Positions 38,016 through 58,600 of a stretch of 64,000 nt of DNA are shown here, in pieces. A program made the translations under genes and the position numbers. The notes beneath the pieces are model-generated. The model saw only the letters and a program-made list of their open reading frames with translations, made no database searches and had not been told where the DNA came from. Where the stretch lies: positions 3,162,001 through 3,226,000 of the forward strand of contig NZ_CP033969.1 in NCBI RefSeq assembly GCF_003854935.1, in the 5' to 3' direction. The DNA comes from Cupriavidus pauculus (GTDB lineage: Bacteria; Pseudomonadota; Gammaproteobacteria; Burkholderiales; Burkholderiaceae). Each line of letters opens with the position of its first letter. The first letter of the stretch is position 1.

Positions 38016-38486
38016 TTACGCCTCCGCCGGCACGGACGCCGGCTGGCTGTCGGACGCACTGCGCAGGTGCAGCAGGAACTCGCCGGTCATCATCACCCAC
38101 AGCCGCAGCATCGACGCCACGTGCGCGCGGCTGACGCCGTCGTACAGCGTCACATCCATCTCCAGCACGATCAGTTCGCCATGCGTCGCCAGCCGGGCAA
38201 AACGCTTGCCGCGATGCCAGCCATCGAGCACGTCGCGCGGCATCTCGCCGCCGGCCACGCGCAACGCGCAACTGAGCGTGAAGTCGGCGTACTGCCCGTC
38301 CGCCACGGCATTGCCCCAGAGCACCTGGAACCCCACGCCATGGCTGGCGCTGTGCAGATGGACGTGGCCGTCGCGTTCGGCGGTGGTCACCGCGCAGCCG
38401 GCGGCGCGGATTGCGTCGGCCAGCGTGTCGGCGTCGATGGCGGACAGCAGGTCCGTGGGACTGGTGGTATCGGTCATGGTCGTCAT
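38016..38486 (-). CDS. YbjN-like (type III secretion chaperone-fold) protein
   Basis: 156 residues. DLLSAIDADTLADAIRAAGC, followed by LHSASHGVGFQVLWGN and LEMDVTLYDGVSRAHVASML, matches the pattern of YbjN/Tir-chaperone-like domain proteins of Burkholderiaceae. Its ATG overlaps the stop of the coiled-coil gene (ATGA), so it is the last gene of the eight-gene envelope operon. YbjN family members affect motility and surface traits in enterobacteria; its function here is unknown. Confidence 0.72.
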   Translation of the reverse strand: MTTMTDTTSPTDLLSAIDADTLADAIRAAGCAVTTAERDGHVHLHSASHGVGFQVLWGNAVADGQYADFTLSCALRVAGGEMPRDVLDGWHRGKRFARLATHGELIVLEMDVTLYDGVSRAHVASMLRLWVMMTGEFLLHLRSASDSQPASVPAEA

Positions 38487-39139
38487 GGCGTGGCGGCGGG
38501 CACGCCCGTGGCGGCCCGCGGATCGAATCGGTTCTCGTGCAGGCGGTCGCCGTAGTCCTGCGCCGCGTTCTCCAGCCGCACGCGCATGCCGGCCGCCAGC
38601 GGCTGGCGCAGCGCCACGGCGTCGGCGATGTCAAAACGCTCGTACGCGGCCAGGATCTCCTTGCCCGTGGCCAGCAGGTTCGCGTTGCGGGTGCCGCACG
38701 CCTGGAGCTGCGCGTCGCGCTCGCGCAGCGCATCGGCCAGCTTGCCGCGGTCCTGCGTGGTCGCGGCCAGTTGCTGCTGCAACGTGCGCGCGGCCTCCTG
38801 CGATGCCTCGCGCTTCTCGTCGGCGGCCCGCGCCTGGGCGGCGGCGCCCTCTTCCACCTGGCGCTGCCGCGCGGCCAGGCCCTGCGCGCGCTGGCGCGCC
38901 GCGTCAAGATCGCCGCGCAGCCCGGCCAGTTCCTTGCGCGCGGCATCGCGGTCGGCCTCGGCCCCGCGCAGCGCGGCATGCATCGTCGATTTCTCCGCCT
39001 GGAGCTGCTGGTTCTGCGCGTTCAGCGTGCGCAGCTGCGTGCGCAGCCGGTCTTCCAGCGAGCCCTGCGCCTGCGCGAGCGCCGCCACCGGTATCGCGCA
39101 GAGCACCGCGCACCATGCCGCCTTCTGGATGGGTCCCAT
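38483..39139 (-). CDS. Secreted coiled-coil protein
   Basis: 218 residues. Signal peptide at about 1-23 (AAWCAVLCAIPVAALAQAQ). Residues about 28-160 are almost continuous heptad-like helix rich in Ala, Arg, Gln and Glu (LRTLNAQNQQLQAEKSTMHA, LRERDAQLQACGTRNANLL), so a periplasmic coiled coil. GAGGAA precedes the ATG. It starts eight bases after the porin stop and overlaps the YbjN-like gene. It could be a scaffold or spacer between the porin or TonB and the peptidoglycan; that is inferred from position. Confidence 0.8.
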   Translation of the reverse strand: MGPIQKAAWCAVLCAIPVAALAQAQGSLEDRLRTQLRTLNAQNQQLQAEKSTMHAALRGAEADRDAARKELAGLRGDLDAARQRAQGLAARQRQVEEGAAAQARAADEKREASQEAARTLQQQLAATTQDRGKLADALRERDAQLQACGTRNANLLATGKEILAAYERFDIADAVALRQPLAAGMRVRLENAAQDYGDRLHENRFDPRAATGVPAATP

Positions 39140-39147
39140 GATGTTCC

Positions 39148-40899
39148 TCAGAACTTGGCGTTCAATTCCAGCATCAGCACGTTGATGGCCAGCGGATCGC
39201 CGTAGACCTCGCGGCCGCTCAGCCAGCGGGCCTGCAGCCAGGCGTGCTTGTCGATGCCATAGGCGGCGCCCAGGAAATAGCCCTTGGCGTTGGTCCCGCC
39301 CAGGCGGAAGTCCGGGTCGGTGAAGCCATCCGGCACGGCGTCCGGCTGCAGGTACTTGTAGCCGAGCAGGAAGTTCCACTGGCCCCGCGCGGAGATCGTC
39401 TGGTTGCCGAAGATCGCGCGCAGCAGGTAGCCGTTCGGGCCGCTGCGCCACTTGTCCTTGTACTCGGCCACCGGCGTGGACCCGTCCACGCCCTCGTAGT
39501 GGTTGGCCGGGTACGCGCGCGGGTCCTGGAACGCGCGGTCCTTGTCGTACGCCAGGTTGCGCACGTAGCTGGCCTGCAGGCTGAACGGCAGCCTGAAGAC
39601 CTGGGTGTCCCACTGCGCGGTCAGGTTCAGCGGACGGAAGTTCTGCGTCAGGCCAAAGAACTGCGGGTTCGACGTGTCGTCGACGTTGACCGGCACGTTG
39701 TTGCGCAGCCCGAACACCGTGTTGCCCTTCTGCATGAAGGCCGGGCGCGTGTTGTCGGTGTCGCAGGAAGGCGCCGATGTGAGGCACGGCGACGAGAACG
39801 CCCCGCGCATGCCGGTGAAGTGGTAGTAGGCGATGGCACCCTTGACGCGGTCCGCGCCCAGCTTGCCCTCGGCGCCGGCCTGCAGCGCGAACAGCCAGCT
39901 CGCATGGCTGTCCTTCTCCGGGCTGTTTTCCGGGAAGTTGTCGGCGCCGTAGTTGACCGGGAATACGCCGCCGGTCACGAACGCCGTGACGCCGCGATTG
40001 CCCACCGGCTTGAGCCAGCGGCCGGCGATGCCATCGAAGTTCAGGTCGTTGGCGAACAGCAGGTCCGCGTTGTCGAGCGAATAGAACGGGTTGCCGAAGC
40101 GGCCGGCCGTGACGCGGAAGGCTTCGGTGAAGCGGTAGTCCAGGTAGGCCTGGTCCAGCCAGATGCTCTTCTTGGCAAACCCGCCGCCCAGCGTCTGCGT
40201 GGTCGACACCGGCCCGTTGCTGCTGCCCGTGCCCAGCCGGATGCCCGCCGTGAGATCGTCCGAGATTGCCGCGGTCACGCCCAGCCGGGCGCGGATGCGG
40301 AACAGGTCGTTCTGGTCCTCGGTGGTGTTCAGCAGCGGCGGCAGCACACCGCTGGCGTTGTTCATGTTGACCGGGCCGTTCGCGTTGATGGCCGCGTAGT
40401 CCACGGCCGGCGCGTTGCCGCTGCCGTACAGGTTGGCCTGGTAGCGCACGCGCACGTCGCCCGATACCGTGATGCGCGACACCCAGTCCGGGAACGTGTT
40501 GGGCTGCGCCCAGTTTTCCGCCCTGGCCTGCGCGATGACTTCCTGCTTGACCTCGTCGCGGATCTCCGCGCGCACGCGGGGCGACACGTACGGCACGCGC
40601 ACGTCGCCCGGTTGCGCAACGGCCGCACCGGCCACGCCCGCCACGCCACCCGCGGCCAGCGCCGTGCCGCCGCCAGTCGGTGGCTGCGCGGCGGCGCGGG
40701 CCTGGGCCAGCAGCGCGTCGCCCTCATCCCTGGTCAGCGTCCCGCGCATCACCAGGATGCGGATCAGGTTCTGCGTGACGTCGCCCGATGGCGCGCCGGC
40801 CGCGGCCTGGGCCCACGCCGGCTGGCCGCACATGGCCAGCAGCAGCGCTGCCGCCAGCGGTTGCAGTACAGGCCGGCGCACGCGCATTGCCTGGTTCAT
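39148..40899 (-). CDS. Large outer-membrane porin (Porin_5-like)
   Basis: 583 residues. Signal peptide ending near AWAQA (about residue 31). Residues about 38-135 form a helical N-terminal extension ending in EIRDEVKQEVIAQARAENWA, a probable periplasmic coil; residues 140 onward alternate short amphipathic strands and end in MLELNAKF with C-terminal Phe, the beta-barrel assembly signal. It resembles the putative-porin family found with TonB systems. Cys in PCLTSAPSCDTDNTR may close a surface loop. Lies in the TonB-ExbBD-FhaC operon. Confidence 0.85.
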   Translation of the reverse strand: MNQAMRVRRPVLQPLAAALLLAMCGQPAWAQAAAGAPSGDVTQNLIRILVMRGTLTRDEGDALLAQARAAAQPPTGGGTALAAGGVAGVAGAAVAQPGDVRVPYVSPRVRAEIRDEVKQEVIAQARAENWAQPNTFPDWVSRITVSGDVRVRYQANLYGSGNAPAVDYAAINANGPVNMNNASGVLPPLLNTTEDQNDLFRIRARLGVTAAISDDLTAGIRLGTGSSNGPVSTTQTLGGGFAKKSIWLDQAYLDYRFTEAFRVTAGRFGNPFYSLDNADLLFANDLNFDGIAGRWLKPVGNRGVTAFVTGGVFPVNYGADNFPENSPEKDSHASWLFALQAGAEGKLGADRVKGAIAYYHFTGMRGAFSSPCLTSAPSCDTDNTRPAFMQKGNTVFGLRNNVPVNVDDTSNPQFFGLTQNFRPLNLTAQWDTQVFRLPFSLQASYVRNLAYDKDRAFQDPRAYPANHYEGVDGSTPVAEYKDKWRSGPNGYLLRAIFGNQTISARGQWNFLLGYKYLQPDAVPDGFTDPDFRLGGTNAKGYFLGAAYGIDKHAWLQARWLSGREVYGDPLAINVLMLELNAKF

Positions 40900-40932
40900 T
40901 GCTTTCTCCTCATGATCCGAATGTCCATGTCG

Positions 40933-41613
40933 TCAGGGGCGCCGCGCCTGCATCGCGACGCGCGCCGGAAAGGTCAGTCCCGCGGGCGGCTTCTCGTCGA
41001 CCTGGCCCACGGCGCGCAACGCCGCCAGCAGGGCCTCGTCGGTCTTCGCATCGCCGCTGGAGCGCACCAGCTCCACGCGGGTGATGCGTCCGCCATCGTC
41101 GAGCCACAGGTGCAGCAGCAGTTGCGGATAGGCCAGCCGCGCGGTCGCCGGGTCGCGTTGCACCGCGCGCTGCAGCGCGTAGGCCAGGTACTGGCCGTAC
41201 GTCGCGTTGCCGGCACGGCCGCCGCCGCTGCCCCCACCGCCCATGCCGCCACCGCTGCCGATCTGGATGCCCCCGGCGCCGGCCTGGGCATCCGCGTTCA
41301 TCGTCACGCTCTCGGGTGCGTCGTTGGCGGGCTTGGGCGCCTCGGCCGGCTTGGCTGGCTCCATGGGCTTTGGCTCGGGCGCCTGCATGCGCTCCTTCAC
41401 CTCGGGCGGCTTCTGTTCGGGCGGCGGCGGGGGCGGTGGCGGCGGGGGCGGCAGCGCCACCATCGGCGGCAGGCGCGGTGCCTCGCGGCGCGCGGCGGCC
41501 TTGTCCGCCGACCATTGCCAGACCAACCAGCCAACCAGCGCCACCACGGCCAGCGCCAGCGCGGCCAGGGCGGCCCGGCGTCTGCGGGCGGCTGGGGACG
41601 GGTGCGAATCCAT
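40933..41613 (-). CDS. TonB-like energy transducer
   Basis: 226 residues. One N-terminal membrane helix (about 14-35, ALAALALAVVALVGWLVWQW), a Pro-rich periplasmic spacer with eleven consecutive prolines (about 55-65) and PEPKPMEPAKPAEAPKPA, a Gly-rich stretch (IQIGSGGGMGGGGSGGG), then a C-terminal TonB fold (YPQLLLHLWLDDGGRITRVE, SSGDAKTDEALLAALRAVG). TonB couples the ExbBD motor to outer-membrane proteins. It lies three bases after exbD. No TonB-dependent receptor is in the window, so its outer-membrane partner may be the porin or the FhaC barrel; this is inference. Confidence 0.88.
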   Translation of the reverse strand: MDSHPSPAARRRRAALAALALAVVALVGWLVWQWSADKAAARREAPRLPPMVALPPPPPPPPPPPEQKPPEVKERMQAPEPKPMEPAKPAEAPKPANDAPESVTMNADAQAGAGGIQIGSGGGMGGGGSGGGRAGNATYGQYLAYALQRAVQRDPATARLAYPQLLLHLWLDDGGRITRVELVRSSGDAKTDEALLAALRAVGQVDEKPPAGLTFPARVAMQARRP

Positions 41614-41616
41614 GGC

Positions 41617-42024
41617 CTAGTTGCTCTGCTTGCCGGTCACCAGGCCCACCTGCTGCAGTTCCAGCCGGCGCAGCAGGTCCAGCACTTCCACCACCTTGCG
41701 GTACTGCACGCCAGCGTCGCCCTTGACGATCACCGGAAAATCGGGCGTCAGCGCGCGCTGCGAGCGCAGGCGGTCTTCCAGCTCGGGCAGCGTCACGGGC
41801 ATCGCGTCCAGGTAGACCTGGCCAGAATCCGACACCGTGATGGCCTTGACCTTCTGCTCGGACAGGCTGGCCGATGCGCTGGCCTTGGGCAGGTCCACCT
41901 TGATGCCCTGCACGGCGGCCGTGGTCATCAGGATGAAGATGATCAGCAGCACGAACGCCAGGTCCAGCAGCGGCGTGATGTTGATGTCGTCGTAGGGCTT
42001 GTCGTCGTCATGCGCGGCGGCCAT
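41617..42024 (-). CDS. exbD: ExbD-type biopolymer transport protein
   Basis: 135 residues. The single membrane helix contains the essential proton-path Asp (D21) in DINITPLLDLAFVLLIIFIL; the periplasmic part has LPKASASASLSEQKVKAITV and VVEVLDLLRRLELQQVGLVT, the standard ExbD layout. The start at 42,024 follows AGGAGA. Forms the inner-membrane stator with the ExbB-like protein encoded 25 bases upstream and drives the TonB-like protein. Confidence 0.93.
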   Translation of the reverse strand: MAAAHDDDKPYDDINITPLLDLAFVLLIIFILMTTAAVQGIKVDLPKASASASLSEQKVKAITVSDSGQVYLDAMPVTLPELEDRLRSQRALTPDFPVIVKGDAGVQYRKVVEVLDLLRRLELQQVGLVTGKQSN

Positions 42025-42049
42025 GGCGGTTCTCCTTGGTCCGTGCGGC

Positions 42050-43957
42050 TCAGACGTTGCCGCGCCCGTCGGCCGGCGCGGCCGGTGACAGGCCCACGCT
42101 GCCGCCGCCGCGCTGCGCCGGCACCAGGCCCGCCTCGGCAAAGCGGCGCATCAGCTCGGCCACGAAGCGATCCATGTGCGCGCCGGCATCGGCGCCGGCC
42201 TCGGCCAGCAGCGTCTCGGGCATCGCGTGCAGCTCGGCCAGCCGCGTCACGAACTCGTCGACGAACACGTCCATGTCGGCGCTGACGTTCTTGTTGCGCG
42301 TGAGCAGGTAGTTGTAGGAAAACAGCGCCGGGATGGCGACGAACAGACCCACCACAGTGGCCACCAGCGCGGCGGCAATGCCGGGTGCGATCGCGTTGAT
42401 GTTGACCTCGCCGGCCAGCGCCACGGCCGCGAACACCAGGATGATGCCGACCACCGTGCCCAGCAGGCCCAGGTACGGGCCGCCCGAGATCGAGATCGTC
42501 AGCAGCACCAGCCCGCGGTTCAGCCGCTGGTTCTCGCGCACCCGGGTGGCGTCCATCGATGCGCGGATCGCCTCGATCGTCTCGGTGGTCACGGTCTGCG
42601 TGCCCTCCTGCTGGCGCCGGGTGCGCAGTTCGTTCACTGCCACCTGGTACAGGCGGTACAGGCTCGAATCGCGCATCGTGCGCTCCAGCGCCGCGTTGGC
42701 CGGTATCGCCTCGGCCAGCGCTTCGAGCCGGTGGCCGATCTTGCGGAACTGCTCGATGAAGGCGTCATTGGCGCGCGACACCCGGCCAACATAGGTTGCC
42801 TTGGTATAGGTCACCCACCACGACAGCACCGACATGATCGCCAGCAGGCCGATCACGACCCAGGCATCGACCGGCACGTTTGTCAGGATGAAACCGATCT
42901 CGCCAAAGCCGCCGCCGGCCTGCTTCTCGTCGGGCCCGTAGGCCACCAGCTTCGACTCGCTGCCCTGCATGGCCGCCTCGGCGGCCAGCAGCGCCGTGGG
43001 CCGGCGCACGCGCGAGACGCGCAGTTCGTCGACGTCCGCCACCAGGGCGGGCAGGTCGCCGGACGGATCGGCGCCCACCGTGGCCGGGCCGGTCAGCGCC
43101 GGCAGCGCCGCCGCCAGCTTCGCGGCTTCCTTGCCGTTGACCAGCAGCGCGATCTCGCCGTTGCCGGCCGCGACGGCCACATGGGTCCACTGCTGCGCGC
43201 CGATGGCCTGCTGCGCGGCGGCCTGCTGCGCCCCCAGCCGCACGTACGGCACGCCATTGGCCAGCCCCACGACCAGTGCATTGCCGGCGTCACGGCGCAC
43301 GAATAGCGCGCCGCTGGCATTGGCGTCGGTGCGGATCCAGGCGCCCATCGTCAGCGCGCCGCCCGGGCCAACCTTCAGCGATTCGCTGGCAGGCAGCGCC
43401 ATGCCCTGCTTGCCGTCGAGCTTCGCCGCCTGGCCGATCAGCCCCTCGCCCACCGCCACGCCGCCCTGGGCGTTGTTGTGGTACGCGGTGGCATCGGCCG
43501 GTGCCGTGCCCGACGCGCCATCGAAGTGGTAGACGGCCGTGTAGTCGGCATCGAACGGCGACGCGGCGCCACCACCCGGCGTGGCCTTCTGGTTGCCGTA
43601 GTACATCCACAGGTCCTGGCGCGCACCGCCGGCCACGGCCGGCACGTCGACCCACACCAGCGCCATGCCGAGCAGCGGGTCGAACTGTTCGACCTGGGCG
43701 GCAAGCGGCGTCTTGTCGTCGGCGGCCACGAAGCGCAGGTCGGCGCCCTTCTCGTGCACGCCATCGAACTGGAAGTTGCCCGCATGCAGCCGCACCAGCA
43801 CCGGCACGCGCCCGAGCGGTTCGGCGATGTTGGCGCCGTTCGGCGTGGTATCGACCGAAACGGGCTTGCGGTAGGACCATTCCTGTTGCCACCACGCTTG
43901 CGCCGCCTGCGGCAGCAGGCCGGCGGCGAGGGCCAGGGAGAGAAGCAGTTTACGCAT
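42050..43957 (-). CDS. DUF2341-LamG-ExbB fusion protein
   Basis: 635 residues against about 240 for ordinary ExbB. Signal peptide 1-22 (LLLSLALAAGLLPQAAQA). Residues about 23-150 are a DUF2341 domain (WWQQEWSYRKPVSVDTT, RFVAADDKTPLAAQVEQFD, LWMYYGNQKATPGG). Residues about 155-345 are a LamG/concanavalin-like domain (TAVYHFDGASGTAPADATAY, MGAWIRTDANASGALFVRR, DELRVSRVRR). From about 370 comes ExbB/TolQ with three membrane helices (WVVIGLLAIMSVLSWWV; YLGLLGTVVGIILVFAAVAL; IAPGIAAALVATVVGLFVAI). The motor subunit therefore carries a large periplasmic carbohydrate-binding-like ectodomain. Start at 43,957. Confidence 0.92.
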   Translation of the reverse strand: MRKLLLSLALAAGLLPQAAQAWWQQEWSYRKPVSVDTTPNGANIAEPLGRVPVLVRLHAGNFQFDGVHEKGADLRFVAADDKTPLAAQVEQFDPLLGMALVWVDVPAVAGGARQDLWMYYGNQKATPGGGAASPFDADYTAVYHFDGASGTAPADATAYHNNAQGGVAVGEGLIGQAAKLDGKQGMALPASESLKVGPGGALTMGAWIRTDANASGALFVRRDAGNALVVGLANGVPYVRLGAQQAAAQQAIGAQQWTHVAVAAGNGEIALLVNGKEAAKLAAALPALTGPATVGADPSGDLPALVADVDELRVSRVRRPTALLAAEAAMQGSESKLVAYGPDEKQAGGGFGEIGFILTNVPVDAWVVIGLLAIMSVLSWWVTYTKATYVGRVSRANDAFIEQFRKIGHRLEALAEAIPANAALERTMRDSSLYRLYQVAVNELRTRRQQEGTQTVTTETIEAIRASMDATRVRENQRLNRGLVLLTISISGGPYLGLLGTVVGIILVFAAVALAGEVNINAIAPGIAAALVATVVGLFVAIPALFSYNYLLTRNKNVSADMDVFVDEFVTRLAELHAMPETLLAEAGADAGAHMDRFVAELMRRFAEAGLVPAQRGGGSVGLSPAAPADGRGNV

Positions 43958-43989
43958 GACAGGGCTCCGTCGCGCACCTTGCGGGCGCA

Positions 43990-45582
43990 TCAGAAATTGG
44001 CGCGGACATTGAAATTGACGGTCAGGGAGCCGGCTTCGGTCCGTTGCGCGTCGCGCAGCGGCCAGCCGAAATCGAGCTTGCCGGTGACCGCGCGGTACAT
44101 CCGGAAGCTGGTGCCAAAGCCCACGCCCAGCAGCGTGTAGCTGCGGCGCTGTTCGGGCAGCGGGTCTTTCAGGCGCAGCGTGGCGGCGTCCAGGAAGCCG
44201 TAGACGCGCCATTCGTCCACGCCGGCCCAGAGCCAGTCCGCGTACGACGGCGATCGCACCTCCAGCGAGCCCAGCACGCCGTTGTCCGACGTGGCCTCGG
44301 CCGAGTAATAGCCGCGCACGCTGGTGGCGCCGCCGGCCGCGAACTGCTCGCTCGATACCAGCGGCCCCGACGAGACCTGCGCCGCGCCGCGCGCGTAGAG
44401 CTGCGCGCCGCTGCCGAGTGTCTGCGTGTGCGAGCCATCGGCCTTCAGGTACATGAAATCGGGCGACGCGCGGTAGCGCTTGGCGCCAAAGTCCTGCGCG
44501 CCGCTGCCGATGCCGGTGCCCATCACCGCGGACAGCGCCAGTGCGCTCTGCGAGCGCTCGCTGAAGCGGTAGCCGTTGAACGACAGCGTCATCGGCACGT
44601 AGTGGATCGGCACGTCCGAGCTGCTGCCGCCCAGCGAGACCTTTTCCTTGAGGTCCTTGAAATCGAACCCCAGCCCGACGGAGCCGGTCCAGTCACCGGT
44701 CTGCGGCAGCGCGTAGTTGCCCTGCAGACCCACCGCGTAGCCGTTGCCGAGCACGCTGGTGCCGCCCACCGTCGCCACGTTGCTGTCCGACGTATAGCCG
44801 GTGGCCTGCACGCTGAACGGCGAGTTCCGGAACGGCGCCAGGTAGCTGAACGACCAGACCCGCGCCTCGCTGAGCGCCTGCGGGGCGCCAAAGAACGTGA
44901 CCGACGCCTGGTGGCCGCGCTGCCAGAGGTTGTCGTGGCTCAGCGTGGCCGACGCCCGCAGCGCGTGGGTATCCACGCTGTGGTCGTTGTTCAGCGACAC
45001 GCTGCCGCCGAGCGGGTTGTGGTCTTCCACCTTCAGTTCGACATCGACCGTCTGCGGCAGCGACCCCGGCCGCACCATCGGCACCACCTGCCGGTTGGGC
45101 GTGGTGTTCAGGCTCGTGAGCTGCTGCTGCGCGGCGTTGAAGTCCGGCACGCCGCCTTCGGCCAGCGACGGTACGGCGTCACGCACCATGGCGGGCGAGT
45201 AATGCTCGGCACCCACCACGCGCAGCCGGCCCACGCGGGTTTCCACCACCTGCAACACCACCACGCCGCCGGTCACGCGCTGCTCGGGCAGTTCCACCAC
45301 GACGGACTGGTAGCCGCGGTCCTGATAGCGCTTTTCCAGCGCGGCGCGCGCGGCCTGGACGTCGTCGACGGAACGGTCGGGGCCCAGGAACGGCTCGATC
45401 GACGTCTCGATCTCCACGGCATCGAGCACAGTGTTGCCGCGCACCACGTACTCGTTGACGTCGAAGCGGGCCGGCGCGGCCTGCGCGGCGGCGGCGCCGG
45501 CGTGCGCCACCATGATCAGCAGCATCGCCGCACGCGACAGGCGCGAGCGCTCCCCGATCCCGTGTTGCCGGGACATTTCCAT
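43990..45582 (-). CDS. FhaC/ShlB-type two-partner secretion translocator
   Basis: 530 residues. Signal peptide about 1-36. Two POTRA-like domains (DVNEYVVRGNTVLDAVEIET at about 40; VGRLRVVGAEHYSPAMVRDA at about 125), then a 16-strand barrel beginning near LGGSVSLNNDHSVDTHALRA, with the conserved VRGY of the L6 loop in GGATSVRGYYSAEATSDNG, and C-terminal Phe (NFNVRANF). This is an Omp85-family TpsB, exporting FHA-type proteins through the outer membrane. Its probable partner is the FHA gene starting beyond 64,000. It lies between a parvulin and the ExbB fusion. Confidence 0.92.
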   Translation of the reverse strand: MEMSRQHGIGERSRLSRAAMLLIMVAHAGAAAAQAAPARFDVNEYVVRGNTVLDAVEIETSIEPFLGPDRSVDDVQAARAALEKRYQDRGYQSVVVELPEQRVTGGVVVLQVVETRVGRLRVVGAEHYSPAMVRDAVPSLAEGGVPDFNAAQQQLTSLNTTPNRQVVPMVRPGSLPQTVDVELKVEDHNPLGGSVSLNNDHSVDTHALRASATLSHDNLWQRGHQASVTFFGAPQALSEARVWSFSYLAPFRNSPFSVQATGYTSDSNVATVGGTSVLGNGYAVGLQGNYALPQTGDWTGSVGLGFDFKDLKEKVSLGGSSSDVPIHYVPMTLSFNGYRFSERSQSALALSAVMGTGIGSGAQDFGAKRYRASPDFMYLKADGSHTQTLGSGAQLYARGAAQVSSGPLVSSEQFAAGGATSVRGYYSAEATSDNGVLGSLEVRSPSYADWLWAGVDEWRVYGFLDAATLRLKDPLPEQRRSYTLLGVGFGTSFRMYRAVTGKLDFGWPLRDAQRTEAGSLTVNFNVRANF

Positions 45583-45611
45583 ACCTGCCCTCTTTGTGGA
45601 TGCGGGCGCTG

Positions 45612-46526
45612 TCAGCGCACGGCGGAAATCACGCTGTCCAGCGCGGCCTTGTCGATGGCGTTGGCGCCCTGCGCGCTGACCTGCTGCCGCAGGTACTGCT
45701 GGGCGGCGTCGGCCTCGTACTGCTGGCGCATGGTGGCGCGCAGCCGGTCGCGCACCTCGGCCAGCGGACGCAGGCCCGCCTCGCGCACCTCCAGCAGCTT
45801 CAGCACATGGAAGCCGTTGGGCGTGCGCACCGGATCGGACACCGCGCCCGGCTTCATGCCAGCCACCGCCGCGCGGATCTCGGGAATCATCTCGGCCTCG
45901 GATACCCAGCCGGTGTCGCCGCCGCTGGCGGCCGAGCGCGGCTCCTGCGAGCGGGCCCGGGCCAGCGCGGCAAAGTCGCCACCGCGCGCCTGCCGGGCCA
46001 GGTCGTCGGCATCCTTGCGCGCCTTGGTCACGGCCGCGTCGTCGCCGGTGGCCGCCACGAAGATCTGCGCGATGTGCCACGCCTTCGGCGCCGTGAATGC
46101 CGCCTTGTTGGCGTCGTAGGCGGCCTGCAGCTCAGCGTCGGACGGGTAGGCCTGCGGCGCCTGCGAGATCGATTCCAGATAGCTGCGCACCACCACCTGC
46201 TGGCCGGCGTCGCGCGCCATGGCGGCCACGTCAGGCTTCTTCGCCCAGCCCTTGGCCTCGGCTTCGGCCAGCACGGTCTTCTGCGCCAGGCGGCCCTGCA
46301 CCAGCCGCTCCAGCAGTGCCTTGTCGGCGGCCAGGCGCTGGCGCGCGGGGGCGTCCAGGCCGCGCAGGAACGTTTCCAGCTCGTCCTGGGTCACAGTGGC
46401 ACTGCCGCTGCGCGCCACCACCTTGTCGGCGCCCATCGCGGACGTTGCCAGCGCGGCACACAGCACGGCGGTGCCGGCGTGGAACGCCACGCCAACGCGA
46501 ATATGTCTCAACTGCAGCTTGCGCAT
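45612..46526 (-). CDS. Periplasmic parvulin-type peptidyl-prolyl isomerase
   Basis: 304 residues. N-terminal signal (VGVAFHAGTAVLCAALATSA), an SurA/PpiC-like helical chaperone region (LETFLRGLDAPARQRLAADK), then a Rotamase domain at about 155-250 (KAWHIAQIFVAATGDDAAVT, SGGDTGWVSEAEMIPEIRA, GAVSDPVRTPNGFHVLKLLE). SurA-like PPIases escort outer-membrane and exported proteins through the periplasm. ATG at 46,526 with GGAGG nine bases upstream; a TTG at 46,556 is a less likely start. First gene of the eight-gene operon. Confidence 0.9.
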   Translation of the reverse strand: MRKLQLRHIRVGVAFHAGTAVLCAALATSAMGADKVVARSGSATVTQDELETFLRGLDAPARQRLAADKALLERLVQGRLAQKTVLAEAEAKGWAKKPDVAAMARDAGQQVVVRSYLESISQAPQAYPSDAELQAAYDANKAAFTAPKAWHIAQIFVAATGDDAAVTKARKDADDLARQARGGDFAALARARSQEPRSAASGGDTGWVSEAEMIPEIRAAVAGMKPGAVSDPVRTPNGFHVLKLLEVREAGLRPLAEVRDRLRATMRQQYEADAAQQYLRQQVSAQGANAIDKAALDSVISAVR

Positions 46527-46589: not shown

Positions 46590-46958
46590 TTGAAAAAACT
46601 TCTGGGATTTGCAATGGCGGCGATTCTTGCGGCGCACGGTGACGTGGTTGTTGCGGAATCTGGGCAGATTGCCGACGCGCAACACGGCGCTGCGTGCGTC
46701 AGCGTCGAAGTCAATGGACAACGCGCGCCAGCGCTCGATTGCCTGAACGAGCGGCTGGCGCGCGGGGTGCAGGCGCAGCGCCCGCCGGAGGCCGCGACGC
46801 CGGGCGAGCAGGCGGCCGGCCGCCCATCGAACCAGCTCGGCCTGTTCAACTATTCGGCCACGGCCAACCGCATGGGCAACACCTTCGGCACGTCGGCGCA
46901 GGCGCAGCGGCCACCCGAACGGGTGACGTTCATGCCCGCCGTGGGGCCCCGCCGATAA
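46590..46958 (+). CDS. Small secreted protein with a TTG start
   Basis: 122 residues starting at TTG 46,590, chosen because GGAG lies seven bases upstream and the next residues (KKLLGFAMAAILAAHGDVVV) form a signal peptide; a later ATG would destroy it. Mature part contains a Cys pair (GAACVSVEVNGQRAPALDCL), two copies of QAQRPPE (VQAQRPPEAA and AQAQRPPERV), and LGLFNYSATANRMGNTFGTS. No known family. It is divergent from the FhaC/TonB operon, 63 bases from it. Confidence 0.65.
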   Translation: MKKLLGFAMAAILAAHGDVVVAESGQIADAQHGAACVSVEVNGQRAPALDCLNERLARGVQAQRPPEAATPGEQAAGRPSNQLGLFNYSATANRMGNTFGTSAQAQRPPERVTFMPAVGPRR

Positions 46959-47382: not shown

Positions 47383-47613
47383 ATGCAAATGACGGAAAAC
47401 CAATGGGTCATGAACGTGACGAAGTTCAGTTCTAACCCGTCGAGGGCCCTTGAGGCCGCGCAGGAACAGCCGGTACTGGTCATCCGGCACCAACGGCCGC
47501 ACGCCTACCTGGTGTCAGCCGCATGGTGGCGGGAAGTGATGACGCTGCTGGCCGAAAGCAAGGCAAACCTGGCAGACCAGGGCACGCTGCCCGGCGACTT
47601 CGGCAGCAACTGA
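47383..47613 (+). CDS. Phd/YefM-like antitoxin, no toxin seen
   Basis: 76 residues. NVTKFSSNPSRALEAAQEQP, then VLVIRHQRPHAYLVSAAWW, follows the Phd/YefM antitoxin pattern (N-terminal DNA-binding strand and helix, then a hydrophobic 'pavLv' strand). The normal toxin partner (Doc or YoeB type) is not next to it, and the next gene is gspF, so it is an orphan antitoxin or a stand-alone regulator. Starts at 47,383 or 47,389. Confidence 0.68.
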   Translation: MQMTENQWVMNVTKFSSNPSRALEAAQEQPVLVIRHQRPHAYLVSAAWWREVMTLLAESKANLADQGTLPGDFGSN

Positions 47614-47871
47614 ACGGCACGCCCCGCGCCGCCAATCCCCTGGCGGCCGTCCCCTCCCCGGCCCCGGCGGCCAACCCCCGGCACGGGGGGCAATGTTTCA
47701 GATTCCTGACATTTCTTTCGCACGCAAATGGAATATTTTGTGGCCCGGTGTTCGCGCCCGCGCCGTGCGTGATGGTTCGATGGCAAAACCTGCCCCTTTG
47801 CCGCCACGGTTGTGCCGCAGTGGGCCGATATGTTGGTGGGGTTAGCCGCCCCGACCAACCAGGAGCCCAGC

Positions 47872-49080
47872 GTGCCCGCATTCCGCTATGAAGCTGTCGA
47901 TCTGGGGGGGAAGGTGCATCGCGGCGTGCTGGACGCCGAGGGCAGCAAGGCCGCGCGCGGCCAGTTGCGTACGCGGGGGCTGACGCCGCTCAAGGTGCTG
48001 CCGCTGGCCACGGCGGCCGGGCAGCAGATGACCCTGTTCTCGCCCCGGCTCGGCGCGCAGGAGCAGGCCCTCTTCACGCGGCAGCTATCGAGCCTGCTGA
48101 CGGCCGGGCTGCCGCTCAACGAGGCGCTGGCCGCGCTGGCCGACCAGGCCGAACGCAGCTACATGCGGCAGCTGTTGAGCGCCATCCGGGCCGACGTGGT
48201 GGGCGGCCAGTCGCTGTCCAGCGCGCTGCAGCAGCATCCGCGCGACTTCCCGGACATCTACCGCGCGCTGGTGTCCGCCGGCGAGCACAGCGGCAAGCTG
48301 CACCTGGTGCTGACCCGGCTGGCCGACTACGTGGAAAGCCGCAACGCGCTCACGCAGAAGATCAAGCTCGCCTTCACGTACCCGGCCGTGGTCACCGTGG
48401 TGGCGTTCGGCATCGTCGTGTTCCTGCTGACCTACGTGGTCCCGCAGGTGGTGGGCGTGTTCACCACCACCAGGCAGAAGCTGCCGCTGATCACCGAAAT
48501 CATGCTGGCCTGCAGCGATTTCGCGCGCGAATGGGGCTGGGCCGCCGCGCTGGGCGTGGTGGCGCTGGGTTGGACCGTGCGGCGCTTCCTCGCGCAGCCC
48601 GGGCCGCGCCATCGCTGGCACGTCTGGCTGTTGACCGCCCCGCTGCTGGGCAAGCTCGTGAGCGGCTACAACACCGCGCGCTTTGCCAGCACGCTGGCCA
48701 TCCTGACCAGCGCCGGCGTGCCGATCCTGCGCGCGCTGCAGGCCGCCGGCGAGACGTTGAACAACGTCGCGCTGCGCGCCACGGTTGAAGACGCCATCTC
48801 GCGCGTGCGCGAAGGCACGTCGCTGGCCCGCGCGCTGGCGGTGACCAACCGGTTCCCGCCCGTGCTGATCCACCTGATCCGTTCCGGCGAGGCCACCGGC
48901 AATCTGCCCGACATGCTGGAGCGCGCCGCGCAGGGCGAAGCCAGCCAGCTTGAGCGGCGCACCATGTTCATCACCGGCCTGCTGGAACCCGCGCTGATCC
49001 TGGGCATGGGGCTGATGGTGCTGATGATCGTACTGGCCGTGCTGATGCCGATCCTCGAAATCAACCAGATGGTGCGCTAG
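47872..49080 (+). CDS. gspF: Type II secretion inner-membrane platform protein GspF
   Basis: 402 residues, the usual GspF length. Two T2SSF domains (FTRQLSSLLTAGLPLNEALA at about 69; FASTLAILTSAGVPILRALQ at about 270) and three membrane helices (about 170, 225, 380). The start is GTG at 47,872 with AGGAG six bases upstream and the standard MPAFRYEAVDLGGKVHRGVL N-terminus. It begins the gspF-H-I-J unit; gspE and gspD are not in the window. Confidence 0.93.
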   Translation: MPAFRYEAVDLGGKVHRGVLDAEGSKAARGQLRTRGLTPLKVLPLATAAGQQMTLFSPRLGAQEQALFTRQLSSLLTAGLPLNEALAALADQAERSYMRQLLSAIRADVVGGQSLSSALQQHPRDFPDIYRALVSAGEHSGKLHLVLTRLADYVESRNALTQKIKLAFTYPAVVTVVAFGIVVFLLTYVVPQVVGVFTTTRQKLPLITEIMLACSDFAREWGWAAALGVVALGWTVRRFLAQPGPRHRWHVWLLTAPLLGKLVSGYNTARFASTLAILTSAGVPILRALQAAGETLNNVALRATVEDAISRVREGTSLARALAVTNRFPPVLIHLIRSGEATGNLPDMLERAAQGEASQLERRTMFITGLLEPALILGMGLMVLMIVLAVLMPILEINQMVR

Positions 49081-49629
49081 ATGGGCCGCCTGCGTAACGC
49101 CTGGACGTGGACGGCCAGCCCGGCGGATGCGGGCACGATGCCGACGTCGGCCACCGGGAAACGCCGCGCCCGGCGCCCGCGCGGGTTCACGCTGCTGGAA
49201 CTGCTGGTGGTCATCGTGATCGTCGGCGTGGTCAGCGGCATGGTGGCCGTCAACGCCCAGCCCAGTCCCGGCCAGCTACTGGCGCAGCAAGCGCAGCGGC
49301 TGATCTGGCTGATGCAGGGCGCGCACGACGAGGCCCGGCTGCGCGGCGCGCCGATTGCCTGGGAAGCCGATGCGCGGTCGTGGCGGTTCCTGATCCGCGA
49401 CGGCTCGCGCTGGCTGCCGCTGCGCGACGACACGCTCGTGCCCGGTTCCTGGGGCACGCCGCTGGCCGCGCTGCAGGTGTCGCAGCCCGGTGCGCCGGTG
49501 CAAAGCGGCGGCGCCCGCATCCTGTTCGGGCGCGAGGCCGTGGAGCCGACGCTCGACATCCTGCTGCAACGCGACGGCGCGACGGTGCGCATCGTCACCC
49601 TCGCGCCGGGCCGCTATGCCGTGCAATGA
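49081..49629 (+). CDS. gspH: Minor pseudopilin GspH
   Basis: 182 residues from the ATG at 49,081 next to the gspF stop; an ATG at 49,138 would shorten the leader to 16 residues and is possible. Type IV prepilin site RRPRG/FTLLELLVVIVIVGVV, followed by a C-terminal domain with WGTPLAALQV as in GspH. The 14-base overlap with gspI shows coupling. Confidence 0.85.
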   Translation: MGRLRNAWTWTASPADAGTMPTSATGKRRARRPRGFTLLELLVVIVIVGVVSGMVAVNAQPSPGQLLAQQAQRLIWLMQGAHDEARLRGAPIAWEADARSWRFLIRDGSRWLPLRDDTLVPGSWGTPLAALQVSQPGAPVQSGGARILFGREAVEPTLDILLQRDGATVRIVTLAPGRYAVQ

Positions 49630-49984
49630 CCGCGCCGGCTTCACGATGATCGAGGTGCTGGTGGCGCTGGTGATCGTCGCCGTGGCGCTGGGCGCCTGCA
49701 TGCGCGCCGCCGGCATGATGGCCGACAGCAGCGACGCGCTGCGCGCCCGCACCGTGGCCGGCTGGAGCGCCGCGAACCGGCTGGCCGAGCTGCGCCTGGC
49801 CGCCGCGCCGCCCGCGCCGGGCACGCGCCGTTTCGGCTGCAACCAGGGCCCGGTGGCGCTCGACTGCGAGGAAAGCGTGATGGCCACCAGCGACCCGCGC
49901 CTGCTGCTGGTGACCGTAGCCGTCTACCGGTCCGGCGACGCCGGCACGCGGCTGGCGCAGCTTGCCCAGGTACTGCCCCGATGA
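49616..49984 (+). CDS. gspI: Minor pseudopilin GspI
   Basis: 122 residues. The leader is short, MPCNDRAG, followed by the prepilin site FTMIEVLVALVIVAVALGAC with Glu at +5. The body (NRLAELRLAAAPPAPGTRRF; GCNQGPVALDC) is GspI-like and carries two Cys. Its ATG at 49,616 lies inside gspH and its stop overlaps gspJ's ATG (ATGA). Confidence 0.85.
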   Translation: MPCNDRAGFTMIEVLVALVIVAVALGACMRAAGMMADSSDALRARTVAGWSAANRLAELRLAAAPPAPGTRRFGCNQGPVALDCEESVMATSDPRLLLVTVAVYRSGDAGTRLAQLAQVLPR

Positions 49985-50613
49985 AGCCGCGCGGATTCAC
50001 GTTGATCGAAATGGTGATCGCCGTGGCGCTGCTGGCCATCGTGGCGCTGATGTCCTATCGCGCGCTGACCGGCATCATCCGCGGCCAGCAGGGTGTGGTC
50101 GATACGATGACCGACCTGCGCGAGGCCGACCGCCTGTTCGACCAGCTCGCCATCGACCTGGCCGATGCGGTGCCCGACGCCGACCTCGGGGCCCATGCCA
50201 TCGCGTTCGACGCCACGCAACTCCGCATCGTGCGCCGCGCGGACGGCAGCGCCGATGGCGAGGGGCCGCCGCGCTGGCAGGCCGTGCGCTACCGCAGCGC
50301 CGAAGGCGTGCTCTGGCGCGAACTGTCGTCGCCGCTGGCCAGCCGTGCCGAGGCACGCGCCGCCCTGTCGGCCGCGCCGGTCGAGCGGCAGGCGCTGGTC
50401 GGCCGCGCCGCCGGCATGCAGGTGCGCGGCTGGCTGTCCGATGGCGCGCGGCGCGGCTGGGCCGCCACCGATGGCGAGCGCAAGCCCCCGGCCGCCCCGC
50501 CCGGCACCGCGCCCACGCAGCCGCGCAACGCCGTGGGCGGCATCGAGATCGTCGTCCTGGCGGGCGCGCCGCCGAGCGCCTACCGGCGCGTCATCGCGGC
50601 GGCGCAGCGCTAG
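49981..50613 (+). CDS. gspJ: Minor pseudopilin GspJ
   Basis: 210 residues. Prepilin start MKPRGFTLIEMVIAVALLAI, then a GspJ-type domain (SYRALTGIIRGQQGVVDTMT, LFDQLAIDLADAVPDADLG). Coupled to gspI. Unusually, gspK does not follow on the same strand but converges from the right with 19 bases between stops. Confidence 0.87.
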   Translation: MKPRGFTLIEMVIAVALLAIVALMSYRALTGIIRGQQGVVDTMTDLREADRLFDQLAIDLADAVPDADLGAHAIAFDATQLRIVRRADGSADGEGPPRWQAVRYRSAEGVLWRELSSPLASRAEARAALSAAPVERQALVGRAAGMQVRGWLSDGARRGWAATDGERKPPAAPPGTAPTQPRNAVGGIEIVVLAGAPPSAYRRVIAAAQR

Positions 50614-50632
50614 GCCGGTGCCGGGGCGAGCG

Positions 50633-51592
50633 TCATGGCGCCGCGTCGTCCGGCTCGCGCACCCAGAGCACGCGCGTGCGCACGGCCACGCCGATGCCGC
50701 TGCGGTACAGCAGCGCCTGCACGCGGCGCACGGCGCGCCCGCTGCGTACCGTTCCATGGACGATGAAGTAGTGGCTGCCCGCGTCCAGCATCAGGCCCTG
50801 GAGTTCGCCGCCCGCCGGCGTCATCGCCGCCGCCCGCAGCGGCAGGTCGCTCACGCCGCGCCAGTAGGCACGATCGCGATCGGCAATCAGCGTGCTGGCC
50901 TGCGACACCGTCAGCCCCGGCACGAAGGCCGCCAGCAGTTCCGGCCCCGCCGTGTTGATGTTCAGCGACGTCGGCTCGGGCAGCGCCACGACGAACGGCG
51001 CCAGCCGGGCCACCGCCTGCGGCGTATAGCCCCGCACGGCGCGCAGGTCCGCGGCGCGCAGCAGCGGCAGCGGGCCGTCGGGACGCAGTGTGCGCAGGAT
51101 GTAGTCCGCCGTCGGCGCCGCCAGGCTGGTGTCGAGCGACAGCGACGCCAGCAACCGCCGATACGCCTGCACGCCCACGGCGCTCACGCCGGGCGGCTCG
51201 GTCAGGCTGGCGGCCGTGACCAGCGTCATCAGGTTGAAGCGCCCCTGGGCATCCTCGATCTCGGCACCTACCTCGATGTCCCCGGCGCCGGACAGCGTCG
51301 CATGCGATGCCGCCGCCGCGCCGATCCACGCCGCCAGCGGCGCCGGCGGGCGTGGCTCGGCCCAGCGCTGGCGCAGATGATCGATCGACGACTGCGTGCC
51401 GCTTTCCTGCACGATGGCCACCGCCCACGCCGTGATCGCGTCCTGCATGGCCTCGCCCTGCGCCCGCAGCCGGCGCGATTCCACGGCGCGCGTGGACGCC
51501 TGCTGCTGCACGAACATCGTCGTCACCAGCGTCACGCACAGCGCCACCACCAGCAGCGCCGTGACCACGGCCGCACCGCGCTGGCGCGGCAT
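50633..51592 (-). CDS. gspK: GspK-type minor pseudopilin
   Basis: 319 residues, near the normal GspK size. N-terminal RQRGAAVVTALLVVALCVTL is the GspK prepilin segment (G/A cleavage, no Glu at +5, as in GspK). The body shows GspK-like blocks (SIDHLRQRWAEPRPPAPLAA, EIEDAQGRFNLMTLV, PTSLNINTAGPELLAAFVPG). Its ATG overlaps the stop of the CoiA-like gene (TGATG). It faces gspJ tail to tail; in most T2SS loci gspJ and gspK are codirectional, so the region has been rearranged. Confidence 0.88.
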   Translation of the reverse strand: MPRQRGAAVVTALLVVALCVTLVTTMFVQQQASTRAVESRRLRAQGEAMQDAITAWAVAIVQESGTQSSIDHLRQRWAEPRPPAPLAAWIGAAAASHATLSGAGDIEVGAEIEDAQGRFNLMTLVTAASLTEPPGVSAVGVQAYRRLLASLSLDTSLAAPTADYILRTLRPDGPLPLLRAADLRAVRGYTPQAVARLAPFVVALPEPTSLNINTAGPELLAAFVPGLTVSQASTLIADRDRAYWRGVSDLPLRAAAMTPAGGELQGLMLDAGSHYFIVHGTVRSGRAVRRVQALLYRSGIGVAVRTRVLWVREPDDAAP

Positions 51593-52341
51593 CACGATCC
51601 CCGTCCGGACAGCCACGCCCAGCACGCCTCGACATCGGCGGCCGGCATTCCGGGGCGCGGCCCGGCCAGGAAGCCCAGGTCCAGCGCCACCTCCTCCAGG
51701 TGGAACATGTGGTGCTGCGACGGCACCGTGGCCAGGCGCGGCCGGGCGTAGTACGCCTTGTAGAAGCGCGGCGCGGGGTCGCGCAGCGCCTGCACGTCCG
51801 CCACGCTGCCGGCCGATCCGTCGAACCAGAACCGCACGGAACTGCCGCCATGCCGCGTGCCGCGTTCGCCGGGCAGGAAGCCCGCCATCGCCAGTTGCAG
51901 ATACGGCACCAGCGCCGGGTGCAGCCCGGCCTGGCGCCAGAGCCCGCCCTGCGTGGCCAGTTCGGCCAGCGACAGGAAGCGCTCGACCGGCATCGATGGC
52001 AGCAGGTCGTCACGCCGCATCCGCTGCAGATGCCATTCCCAGCGCGACACATAGGCGTGGCGCTGGGCCACCGACACGTGGACGTCCGGCGACGGGTCGA
52101 TCCGCAGCCCGTCGGGCAGGTCGCCGTGCCGCACCAGCGGGCACGGCAGGCGGCAGTTCGCGCCATGGCTGAAGCGCGGGCGAATGCGGGTACTGAGCGC
52201 GCCGATCAGCAACAGCGCGCGGTGGCACAGCGGGCAGCGCGGCTGCGGGGCCTCCCCCTGCAGGGCCCGGGCGCCGTACTCGTCGAGATAGGCCTGGACC
52301 GAGATCATGCGCGCGTCTACCGGATGCAATGCGAGTTTCAT
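51592..52341 (-). CDS. Unknown protein with a CoiA-like zinc motif
   Basis: 249 residues. Near the N-terminus PRCPLCHRALLLIGALSTRI, followed by PRFSHGANCRLPCP, has the Cx2C...FxH...C spacing seen in the CoiA competence-protein zinc finger. The rest (WEWHLQRMRRDDLLPSMPVE, MFHLEEVALDLGFLAGPRPG) has no recognised domain. Its stop overlaps the gspK start, so it is translated with that pseudopilin. Start at ATG 52,341. The role is unknown; the CoiA resemblance is pattern level only. Confidence 0.6.
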   Translation of the reverse strand: MKLALHPVDARMISVQAYLDEYGARALQGEAPQPRCPLCHRALLLIGALSTRIRPRFSHGANCRLPCPLVRHGDLPDGLRIDPSPDVHVSVAQRHAYVSRWEWHLQRMRRDDLLPSMPVERFLSLAELATQGGLWRQAGLHPALVPYLQLAMAGFLPGERGTRHGGSSVRFWFDGSAGSVADVQALRDPAPRFYKAYYARPRLATVPSQHHMFHLEEVALDLGFLAGPRPGMPAADVEACWAWLSGRGS

Positions 52342-55639: not shown

Positions 55640-58600
55640 CTATTGCCCGCCCTCCCCGAAACCGAGCACCTGGACCGACACGACCGACGGCATGCGTTCC
55701 TTCGCATTGGCCGTCTGCTGGCGGGCCAGGTCTTCGGCCGCCTGGTTCACCGCGCTTGCCGCGGCACTGGCCGACGTCAGCGCACCGACGTTGACGCTGG
55801 CCATGGCCGGCAGCCCGGTTGCCTTGCCCTGTACCTGGATGTTTGCCGCGTTCACCACTTGCAGCGCCGCCAGGTTGACGTTGCCCGAGACGCGGATGCC
55901 TGCCTCGCCCGCGTCGATGGTGCCCAGCGGCGCGATCAGGTCGATGTCGCCGGGCGCGATCTCCGGAATCGGATTGAGCGTGGCGATGCCGGCGCCGGTG
56001 CTGGGCACCGTGGGCGACAGCGTGACATTGCCCACGTCGTCATAGAGGCGCCGCGGCGGCGAGAACACCACCGTCGTCTTGGCCCCGCGCCCGGCGTTGA
56101 TGTCGCCCGTGGCCGACCACGCCGTGATGTCGCCGCCGAACGTGGTGAAGATGCGCGACAGGCCCAGCAGGATGCTGTCGCGCGAGTACATCCGGATATC
56201 GCCGGTGCCCTGCGTCAGCAGGCCCGACGATGCCGGCGGCACCACGCCTTCCACGCCGATCACGGTCCGGCCGCCTGGCGTCAGCGTCTCGACATGGCCG
56301 CCGAAGTCCGTGCGGATGCCCGAGCCCCCGAACAGCGTGATGTCGCCGTCGTAGGCAATGGCATTGCCCCGGCCGTCCTGGGCCGGGAACAGCGTGGCGA
56401 TGGCCTGGCGCCCGCGCAGGTAGCTGCCCGCGCGCCGGCCGGACGCATCCGTGTACTCGCGGCCGCTCGCGCGCAGCTCGTTGAAGTAGACCTCGCGCAC
56501 GAAGATGCCCTGCTCGGCCGGCGACAGCGCCAGGAAGCGCTCGACCGCCCCGCCGGTGCCGCCCTCGCCGTAGCGGGCCGCCAGCCATGCGGCCAGTTCC
56601 TTCTCGTAGGTCCGGGCCACCCTGCCCGCGTTGGCCGGATCGTCAAGCCCGTAGGCGGCGTCGGCCGCGTTGCCGGCCGAGAAATAGCGACGCGCGAACG
56701 CGCCGTAGTCCGGGCCGCTGGCGCCCACGCCGGCCATGGCGACGATCGACGCCCCGCCCGAGCGGTTGGCCGGATCGACGTTGACGATGGCGCCCAGGCT
56801 TTCGATCGATCCCTTGTCCGCCTGGTACAGGTTGCGCCCGGCGCGCACCTCCAGCAGGCCGGGCCCTGCCACGTTGAAGCTCGACTGCACGATGTCGCGG
56901 CCCGCCGACACCACCGAGATGTCGTGCGGTGCGGCGTGGACGAACAGGTTGCCGGTGTACGCGCTGCCCGGCAGTCCGGACCCGGCCACCTGGCCCGGCC
57001 GGGTGCCAGCGCCCACGACGTCGCGGCCGGCCTGCACCCACACCGGACGGCTGCCGACATACCAGGTGTCGCCGGGCGTCACCGCATTGCCGCCGAAGGA
57101 CACGATCTGCCCCGTGCGCAGCCCCACCACGTCGCCATCGACGGCATAGAAGCGCAGCGGGTCGCGCGCGCCATCATCGCCGGGGGCCTTGTAGGTGTTC
57201 GGCTGGTACGTGAAGAGCCAGTTGCGGCGGGCATTGACCGAGGCGCCGCCCGACGACGCCACGTTGGTCACGATCCCGACCGTACTGTCGCCGGACCGTG
57301 CCTCGAAGGCCGGATGGAACGGCGTCGGCAGCAGGGCGGGGTCGGCCCCCGACACGTTGACCGGAAAGTCCCGCGCGCGGATATCGCCGGCGGCCAGCAT
57401 TTCCAGGGTGCCCGAGCGCGTGGGCGCCAGCAGCAACGCGCGGGTTTCCGAAGCGTCGCTCTTGCCATAGAAGATGCTGCCGCTCGCGGCCTCCACACGC
57501 AGGGCGCCCGGATAGAGATAGCCGCCGTCGGTATCGAAGCCGCCCGACAGCGAGGCCGGGCCCCGCTGCATCTGGATGGGCGATACGTTCCCGCCGCTGG
57601 ACGCCAGCGACAGGCCGCTGCGGTCGGTCCACAGCGAGAACCAGCTGTAGCCGCCGCCCGCAAAGGCCCGGCCCTGCGCCTGGAACGGTGTGGTGCTCGC
57701 CAGCCGGGCGCGTCCCGGGTCCAGGGCGCCGGTCAGCACCAGGTCGCCGCGCGTCGTCACGGCGACCTCTCCATCGCCCGGTGCGACGTAGATGCCGCCG
57801 CCAATCGTCGGATCGATCAGCCTGGGGGCGGTACCCTGCCAGCGCGGGTCGGAGGGATCCGTGCCGCCCGTCCCCGACACATACCCCACCGACGCCGCCG
57901 CCAGCACGGTGTTGCCGCGCAGGTTGACCACCGAGCCAGACAGGTCCGGCGCATTCGTCAGGTCGCCAGCACCCTGCGACAGTGTCTGCCCCGGGTTCCA
58001 GGCCCCGCCGATGCGGACGTCGAGACGGCCCCCGCCGGTCTGCACGAGCGCGCCGTCGACCACCCGTCCGCTGCCGCCCGATACGATGTTGAGCCCGCTG
58101 CTGCGCAGGACCTCGCTGTTCCCGCGGTCGGACAGCACGCCGGCATTGCCACCGACATCGACCCGCACATTGCCGCCGCCCAGCGCGCCGATGCCGGTAA
58201 AGCCGATGACCTGCGTGTTCCTGCCCGGCGCATCGACGCCATACGGTTGCGCATACGTGCCGAAGTTGATCCACCAGGCCGTGCGCTGGCCGATCTCGTC
58301 GCCGCCCTGCCGCCACAGCCAGTTGCCGATCAGGTTGCTCGCCACCATGCCGGCAAGCGGACCGGCATTCTGCGTCCCGATCAGGTCGCCCCGCAGGTCG
58401 CCCTGCGCGGCGACCCGCACGTCGCCGCCGCGCTGCGGATACCACGCCTGGTAGTTGCCGTTGCCGACCAGCGCCTCGTAGCCCGCCGCCACCCCCGCGC
58501 CCAGCACCGACCCGTTGCTGGCGCCCCGCGCCAGGTTGAACGGGTCGCTGCCATTGGCGCCGATGCCGGCTGCCTGCGTGCCCGCGGTATAGACGCCGTA

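Follow-up and report, generated by a model that had tools for sequence, protein, structure and literature searches.

Co-occurrence of a two-partner secretion exporter, a Ton/Tol-type proton motor and DUF3739 exoproteins: a probable dedicated functional unit in Cupriavidus pauculus

We analysed a 64,000-nucleotide stretch of the Cupriavidus pauculus genome (contig NZ_CP033969.1, positions 3,162,001 to 3,226,000; hereafter the window) that carries an operon in which TpsB, the outer-membrane translocator of a two-partner secretion (TPS) system, is encoded together with a Ton/Tol-type proton motor. The operon would combine the exporter with a dedicated motor, a porin and periplasmic helpers, in the service of a class of giant TpsA exoproteins that carry a C-terminal DUF3739 domain, one of which is encoded at the right edge of the window. 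Comparison of sequences across genomes suggests that the exporter, the motor and the DUF3739 cargo very probably form one dedicated functional unit. The motor may further power the export of TpsA, in which case the system would be an energised form of type Vb secretion, and we give this second claim a probability of about 0.5. The locus itself was already known; what is new here is the strictness with which motor and cargo are paired.

The pairing was examined in a phylum sample of 398 Pseudomonadota genomes and in a genus sample of 61 genomes, two genomes (G000 and G045) being present in both. DUF3739 was found in 14 of the 398 phylum genomes, and DUF2341, which belongs to the ectodomain of the ExbB-like motor subunit, was found in 13 of these 14 and in none of the 384 others (Fisher test on 13/1/0/384, 1.7e-23, relatedness being ignored). 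In the fourteenth cargo genome (G343) a contig opens with the C-terminal half of an ExbB, and the genes for ExbD, TonB and the porin come next. Within the genus sample, 11 of the 61 genomes contained DUF3739, and strong DUF2341 matches (E below 1e-15) were found in exactly these 11. Weak DUF2341 matches (1e-7 to 1e-10) occurred without DUF3739 in four genus genomes (G020, G025, G041 and G060), and the neighbourhoods of the matches in G060 and G025 contained no machine genes. Among the sampled genomes, and as far as domain matches define it, the cargo class is not found without the motor, and the patchy distribution of the pair in the genus would speak against common descent as the sole cause. 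The genus sample gave 22 DUF3739 matches for 11 strong DUF2341 matches, with a ratio of up to 8:1 in the 730-contig draft genome G006, so that one machine may serve several cargos.

An earlier note on the window, made from its sequence alone, had proposed that an FhaC-type barrel embedded among TonB, ExbB and ExbD genes exports the DUF3739 protein, and had made this proposal depend on whether relatives keep the barrel and the TonB genes together. They mostly do: the genes for TpsB and ExbB were adjacent in 10 of the 14 cargo genomes (G000, G045, G383, G437, G154, G190, G361, G451, G215, where this occurs twice, and G260), and in two others (G079 and G418) TpsA was located between TpsB and the motor genes, directly before ExbB. 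They were apart in one genome (G327), and linkage could not be judged in G343, where the contig ends. The functional link drawn between TpsB, the motor and the DUF3739 cargo is well supported by these distributions, while the energising of export by the motor is a step that we infer.

The conservation of gene order, which had also been put forward as a test of the proposal, was examined in the best 80 of 132 matches of the ExbB protein in genome contigs (78 from Pseudomonas, one from Cupriavidus and one from Luteibacter). TpsB, ExbB and ExbD were consecutive in 80/80 loci and were followed in a row by TonB, the porin and the coiled-coil protein in 78/80, the two remaining loci (L011 and L080) ending at contig edges. 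YbjN was present in 76 of the 80 loci and the peptidyl-prolyl isomerase (PPIase) in 75. The ExbB of one locus (L008) was 80% identical to that of the window. This gene arrangement is far beyond chance.

In the window itself, the eight tightly packed minus-strand genes that the note had described are real: they run from 46526 to 38016, are intact and without internal stops, are separated by gaps of 29, -1, 25, 3, 33, 8 and -4 bases, and seven of them encode proteins with Pfam domains (domain calls were made with Pfam at its curated cut-offs and with NCBIfam). The first gene (45612..46526, with an ATG start at 46526) encodes a PpiC-type periplasmic PPIase with a signal peptide, PA0699-like, which matched Rotamase_2 at 75.4 bits (cut-off 27). 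The second (43990..45582) encodes the PdtB-like TpsB of 530 residues, in which Pfam recognised POTRA_2 (61.5 bits) and the ShlB barrel (66.7 bits, cut-off 22.7) after a signal peptide; a profile of the TpsB alignment (A3) matched CdiB and FhaC in the PDB. The ExbB/TolQ-type motor subunit (42050..43990, 646 residues) carries DUF2341, Laminin_G_3 and MotA_ExbB on one protein, the DUF2341 and laminin-G-like ectodomain preceding the motor domain, and the ExbD/TolR-type subunit (41617..42024, 135 residues, ExbD 102 bits) contains the Asp motif TPLLD. In the TonB-like force transducer (40933..41613, 226 residues), as judged from Pfam, NCBIfam and the alignment, a long polyproline linker joins a membrane helix to a TonB C-terminal domain, and its scores were barely over the cut-offs (TonB_2 22.8 for 22, TIGR01352 30.2 for 27.1). 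The last three genes encode a Porin_5 outer-membrane porin (39148..40899, 583 residues, 570 bits), a PA0697-like coiled-coil protein with a signal-peptide-like start that belongs to no Pfam family (38483..39139, 218 residues) and a PA0698-like YbjN protein (38016..38486, 156 residues, 30.3 bits for a cut-off of 22).

The aspartate in the membrane segment of ExbD/TolR and the threonines in the pore of ExbB/TolQ are the proton-carrying residues of such motors, and they are kept here. ExbB residues T512 and T545 were invariant across 16 alignment rows, and the T-P-x-x-D motif of ExbD was present in 111 of 113 locus matches (67 distinct sequences, overlapping loci being counted apart, and three other ExbD-family genes of G343 being left out of the count). 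Both exceptions were V-P-M-L-D and came from one single G215 gene. Elsewhere in the same genome there are five further MotA/TolQ/ExbB matches, one of them weak, so the motor of the operon is an extra, dedicated one. The note had named the subunits ExbB and ExbD; motor subunits are indeed present, but they scored higher as TolQ (146 bits) and TolR (93 bits), the scores with the TolQ, TolR, ExbB and ExbD models all being under the equivalog cut-offs. In G418, a tandem pair of ExbD genes (L131:7223-8062) adjoins the TpsA-ExbB operon.

The motor-linked TpsBs stand apart from other exporters of this type. ShlB-type TpsBs of any kind were found in 177 of the 398 phylum genomes, the 13 cargo genomes with a motor-linked TpsB included, and a profile of the motor-linked TpsBs, scored on at most three candidates per genome, gave at least 556 bits in 13 of the 14 cargo genomes and 348 bits in the next genome, with no match in G343. 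In the TpsB neighbourhoods of the ten next-scoring genomes, several of which were short or at contig ends (one was a 6 kb contig), the models of ExbB, ExbD, TonB and the porin all went unmatched. When 49 TpsBs were placed in a tree by a quick method, the 17 motor-linked ones fell on one side of one branch with an SH-aLRT support of 100; its canonical TpsBs came from 15 of 33 candidate loci (6 had no TpsB-model match and 12 were dropped for tree size), and L008 was also left out. A missing plug helix H1, as known from FhaC, was considered as a mark of the motor-linked TpsBs and rejected, since by eye in A3 the helix also looks to be lacking in a motorless TpsB (G353, L213).

The DUF3739 exoprotein that the note had placed at the right edge is also real. 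Its gene (55640..64000, minus strand) starts outside the window, past the right edge, and encodes a TpsA of 4009 residues in all with a TPS domain (PF05860, 81 bits, residues 166-414) and DUF3739 (residues 3845-3954). Some 9 kb separate it from the operon start, an interval that holds a Hint_2 gene, a PstS-like gene and genes of type II secretion, and it is therefore not a member of the operon. We found no mention of DUF3739 in the open-access papers that were searched. The last full 200-residue segment was the most conserved part of the cargo (0.71 and 0.73 in comparison with the two G343 cargos), followed by the TPS-domain region (0.55-0.69), and in alignment A4 the C-terminal region of the window cargo had 62-69% identity to those of Pseudomonas; for comparison, TpsB and ExbB of the window were 50% and 53% identical to their L012 counterparts. 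This region contains a strand that is conserved among cargo tails, PSVVSVQVLGFGEGGQ in the window (55643..55690, minus strand). A strand of the form S-V-F-T-V-Q-V-L-G-F-G was located C-terminal of DUF3739 in 47 distinct cargo tails, of which 27 were matched by a strict expression and 44 by a looser one, the remaining three being visible variants. Most tails continue for 41-64 residues after this strand, the window cargo for a few. The pattern was found in 0/6 tails of other TPS cargos, these being open reading frames chosen by position, only some of them confirmed as TpsA. An N-terminal extension was rejected as a universal feature of the cargo: F-[SN]-x-A-W was present in 5/9 motor-associated rows (L190 and L224 of the nine being the same G079 gene) and absent from G418, G079 and L134 (G215).

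We propose that, in the energised export of these proteins, the isomerase and the coiled-coil protein would hold the cargo export-competent, TpsB would bind its N-terminal TPS domain as usual, and TonB, driven by ExbBD, would pull on the POTRA domains of TpsB or on the conserved C-terminal strand of the cargo, the pull serving to start, complete or release the translocation of the roughly 4000-residue chain. The co-occurrence of motor and cargo, the separate TpsB branch, the kept motor residues, the presence of an extra motor and the conserved cargo C-terminus all point in this direction. There are also precedents for export that is energised in this manner. In the Oar/PopC system of Myxococcus xanthus a protein is described as leaving the cell through the outer membrane in a TonB-ExbBD-dependent manner (PMC6434023), although its outer-membrane part is a plugged TonB-dependent transporter whereas here it is a TpsB. 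SiiAB is described as a related proton-motor pair that works with type I protein secretion in Salmonella, not with TPS, and no TonB partner is mentioned in that account (PMC12204202).

Several observations weigh against this proposal. At the outer membrane, type V translocation is described as proceeding without an energy source, and it has been reconstituted in liposomes (PMC5422565). In P. aeruginosa, insertion mutants of tpsB and of PA0695, the tonB homologue, were reported to match the wild type in virulence in zebrafish when VreI was overproduced, no secretion readout being mentioned in that account (PMC2729926), and in the open-access literature we found no secretion or proton-motive-force experiments on this motor. 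A motor acting before or after export would likewise produce the co-occurrence and the operon linkage, and the porin, which is conserved as much as the motor genes, fits a role in uptake as well. No TonB box was noticed in the TpsB alignment A3, on which no dedicated TonB-box search was made. Finally, G327 encodes exporter and motor at separate loci and was the sole counter-example to linkage among the 14 cargo genomes, though it nonetheless retains TpsB, cargo, porin, ExbB, ExbD and TonB. The motor-paired cargo class could make the energy-free view of type V secretion testable: if this class never occurs without its own proton motor, it offers defined, genetically simple systems in which the need for energy can be tested, and energised export, if true, would be a possible new use of TonB-type motors, for export instead of import. 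The answer is also of practical interest, since in P. aeruginosa the homologous locus is part of a virulence regulator's regulon (PMC7035377).

The conserved porin leads to the reading in which the operon serves display and import, a surface TpsA catching a ligand, in the way that HxuA captures haemopexin, and TonB energising import of this ligand through the porin. We consider this unlikely. It would account for the constant position of Porin_5 after TonB, interrupted only at the two contig edges, for the PstS-like gene within the window and for the induction of the P. aeruginosa homologue when phosphate is limiting, alongside a secreted phosphatase (PMC4971064, PMC7035377). It also has a parallel in HxuCBA, which encodes a TPS pair alongside a TonB-dependent transporter, though in a three-gene operon for which no motor genes are mentioned in that source (PMC5422565). 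However, no Pfam match to a plugged TonB-dependent receptor was obtained on the eight operon proteins, and the porin does not look like such a receptor in its structure model: this model, of low confidence (pLDDT 55.7), shows 16 strands and N-terminal helices, and its best fold match was the attachment porin OmpM1, with other porins also near (no TonB-box search was made on the porin). This would leave TpsB, the cargo tail or the periplasmic part of the porin as the partner of TonB. The several cargos per motor found in some genomes fit a shared exporter better than a single ligand.

A role after export, in which the motor would act on the periplasmic C-terminal tail of TpsA so that the displayed fibre is retained, pulled back or set free, appears slightly less probable again. 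Conservation in the cargo is highest over its C-terminal 200 residues, and the pattern of the terminal strand is that published for the D-box of TonB, which is bound by ExbD through strand addition (PMC10907165). With glycine counted as hydrophilic, 45 of the 47 tails fitted this pattern, but when glycine was not counted as such (zeta), 22/47 fitted and the window tail did not. Where a proline is present in the tails it stands three residues before the motif, and in E. coli TonB it stands directly before. The D-box-like pattern may be taken as a lead toward ExbD binding. The strand could instead cap a beta-helix or be read by TpsB, and the structure model of the DUF3739 region was poor (pLDDT 51.5) and gave no fold match at E 0.001. 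In addition, the tails share ancestry, and the count shows conservation and not independent origin. Least probable is an envelope or regulatory role, in which the motor would be a Tol-like envelope stabiliser or a signal transducer that is co-regulated with the exporter but does not touch it. This suits the TolQ/TolR scores, the P. aeruginosa VreA protein, described as joining a signalling domain to a TolA/TonB-like domain (PMC2729926), and the STN+TonB_2 gene adjoining the G260 locus, but predicts neither the shared occurrence of motor and cargo in genomes nor the position of TpsA directly before ExbB in G079 and G418.

By gene description, the window operon matches PA0691-PA0699 of the published pdt locus of P. 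aeruginosa, which spans PA0690-PA0699, comprises pdtA, phdA, pdtB, exbB2, exbD2, tonB4, a porin, PA0697, YbjN and PpiC, adjoins the hxc type II system and has PdtA as its cargo (PMC2729926, PMC4971064, PMC7035377). TPS, ExbBD and PA0696 homologues had already been noted to go together in several genera (PMC2729926), the pdt locus is placed in the PUMA3 regulon, and exbB2-exbD2-tonB4 is termed there a putative TonB system that is "still uncharacterized" (PMC7035377). Compared through these papers and not by sequence, the two loci share the core order TpsB-ExbB-ExbD-TonB-porin-PA0697 type-YbjN, plus a PPIase, and both have type II secretion genes nearby, joined in the window by a candidate Phd-like gene with a match under the cut-off, whereas in the window the PPIase comes first and the cargo lies 9 kb away past the type II secretion genes. 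A VreA-like regulator (STN plus TonB-like domain) was not found in the genome of the window, whose only two STN matches are on frames of 762 and 874 residues, and a search for a pho box near the operon promoter gave scattered matches to the pho-box consensus at 10/14 positions at best. A VreA-like protein with STN and TonB_2 is encoded near the locus in G260 (L133:3705-4562). With classical TPS systems (FhaC/FhaB, CdiB) the window shares a POTRA-barrel TpsB and a TPS-domain TpsA; unlike them, its operon adds a dedicated motor, TonB and a porin, and its cargo class has DUF3739, the conserved terminal strand and, in some members, the N-terminal extension before the TPS domain.

In L142 and L143 weak TonB-model matches were located next to cargo genes; others were upstream of TpsB in L037, L048 and L071, and one was in L132, where the matching protein belongs to no Pfam family. 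A Capsule_synth gene (L226:12737-14839, plus strand) adjoins the start of a cargo gene. In the window, a frame of 121 residues with a signal-peptide-like start and no Pfam match (46593-46958, plus strand) is divergent from the operon, and a candidate Phd/YefM-like, PhdA-like gene (47383..47613, plus strand) matched PF02604 at 24.1 bits, under the cut-off of 29.8. These are followed by the type II secretion genes (47812..51625), with matches to GspF and GspH on the plus strand and to GspK on the minus strand. A Hint_2 protein (156 bits; 54153-55595, minus strand) is encoded directly after the cargo gene on the same strand and is a possible processing partner. The PstS-like protein (PBP_like_2, 87 bits; 52786-53961, plus strand), encoded between the type II secretion genes and the cargo, is reminiscent of the connection with phosphate at the P. 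aeruginosa locus.

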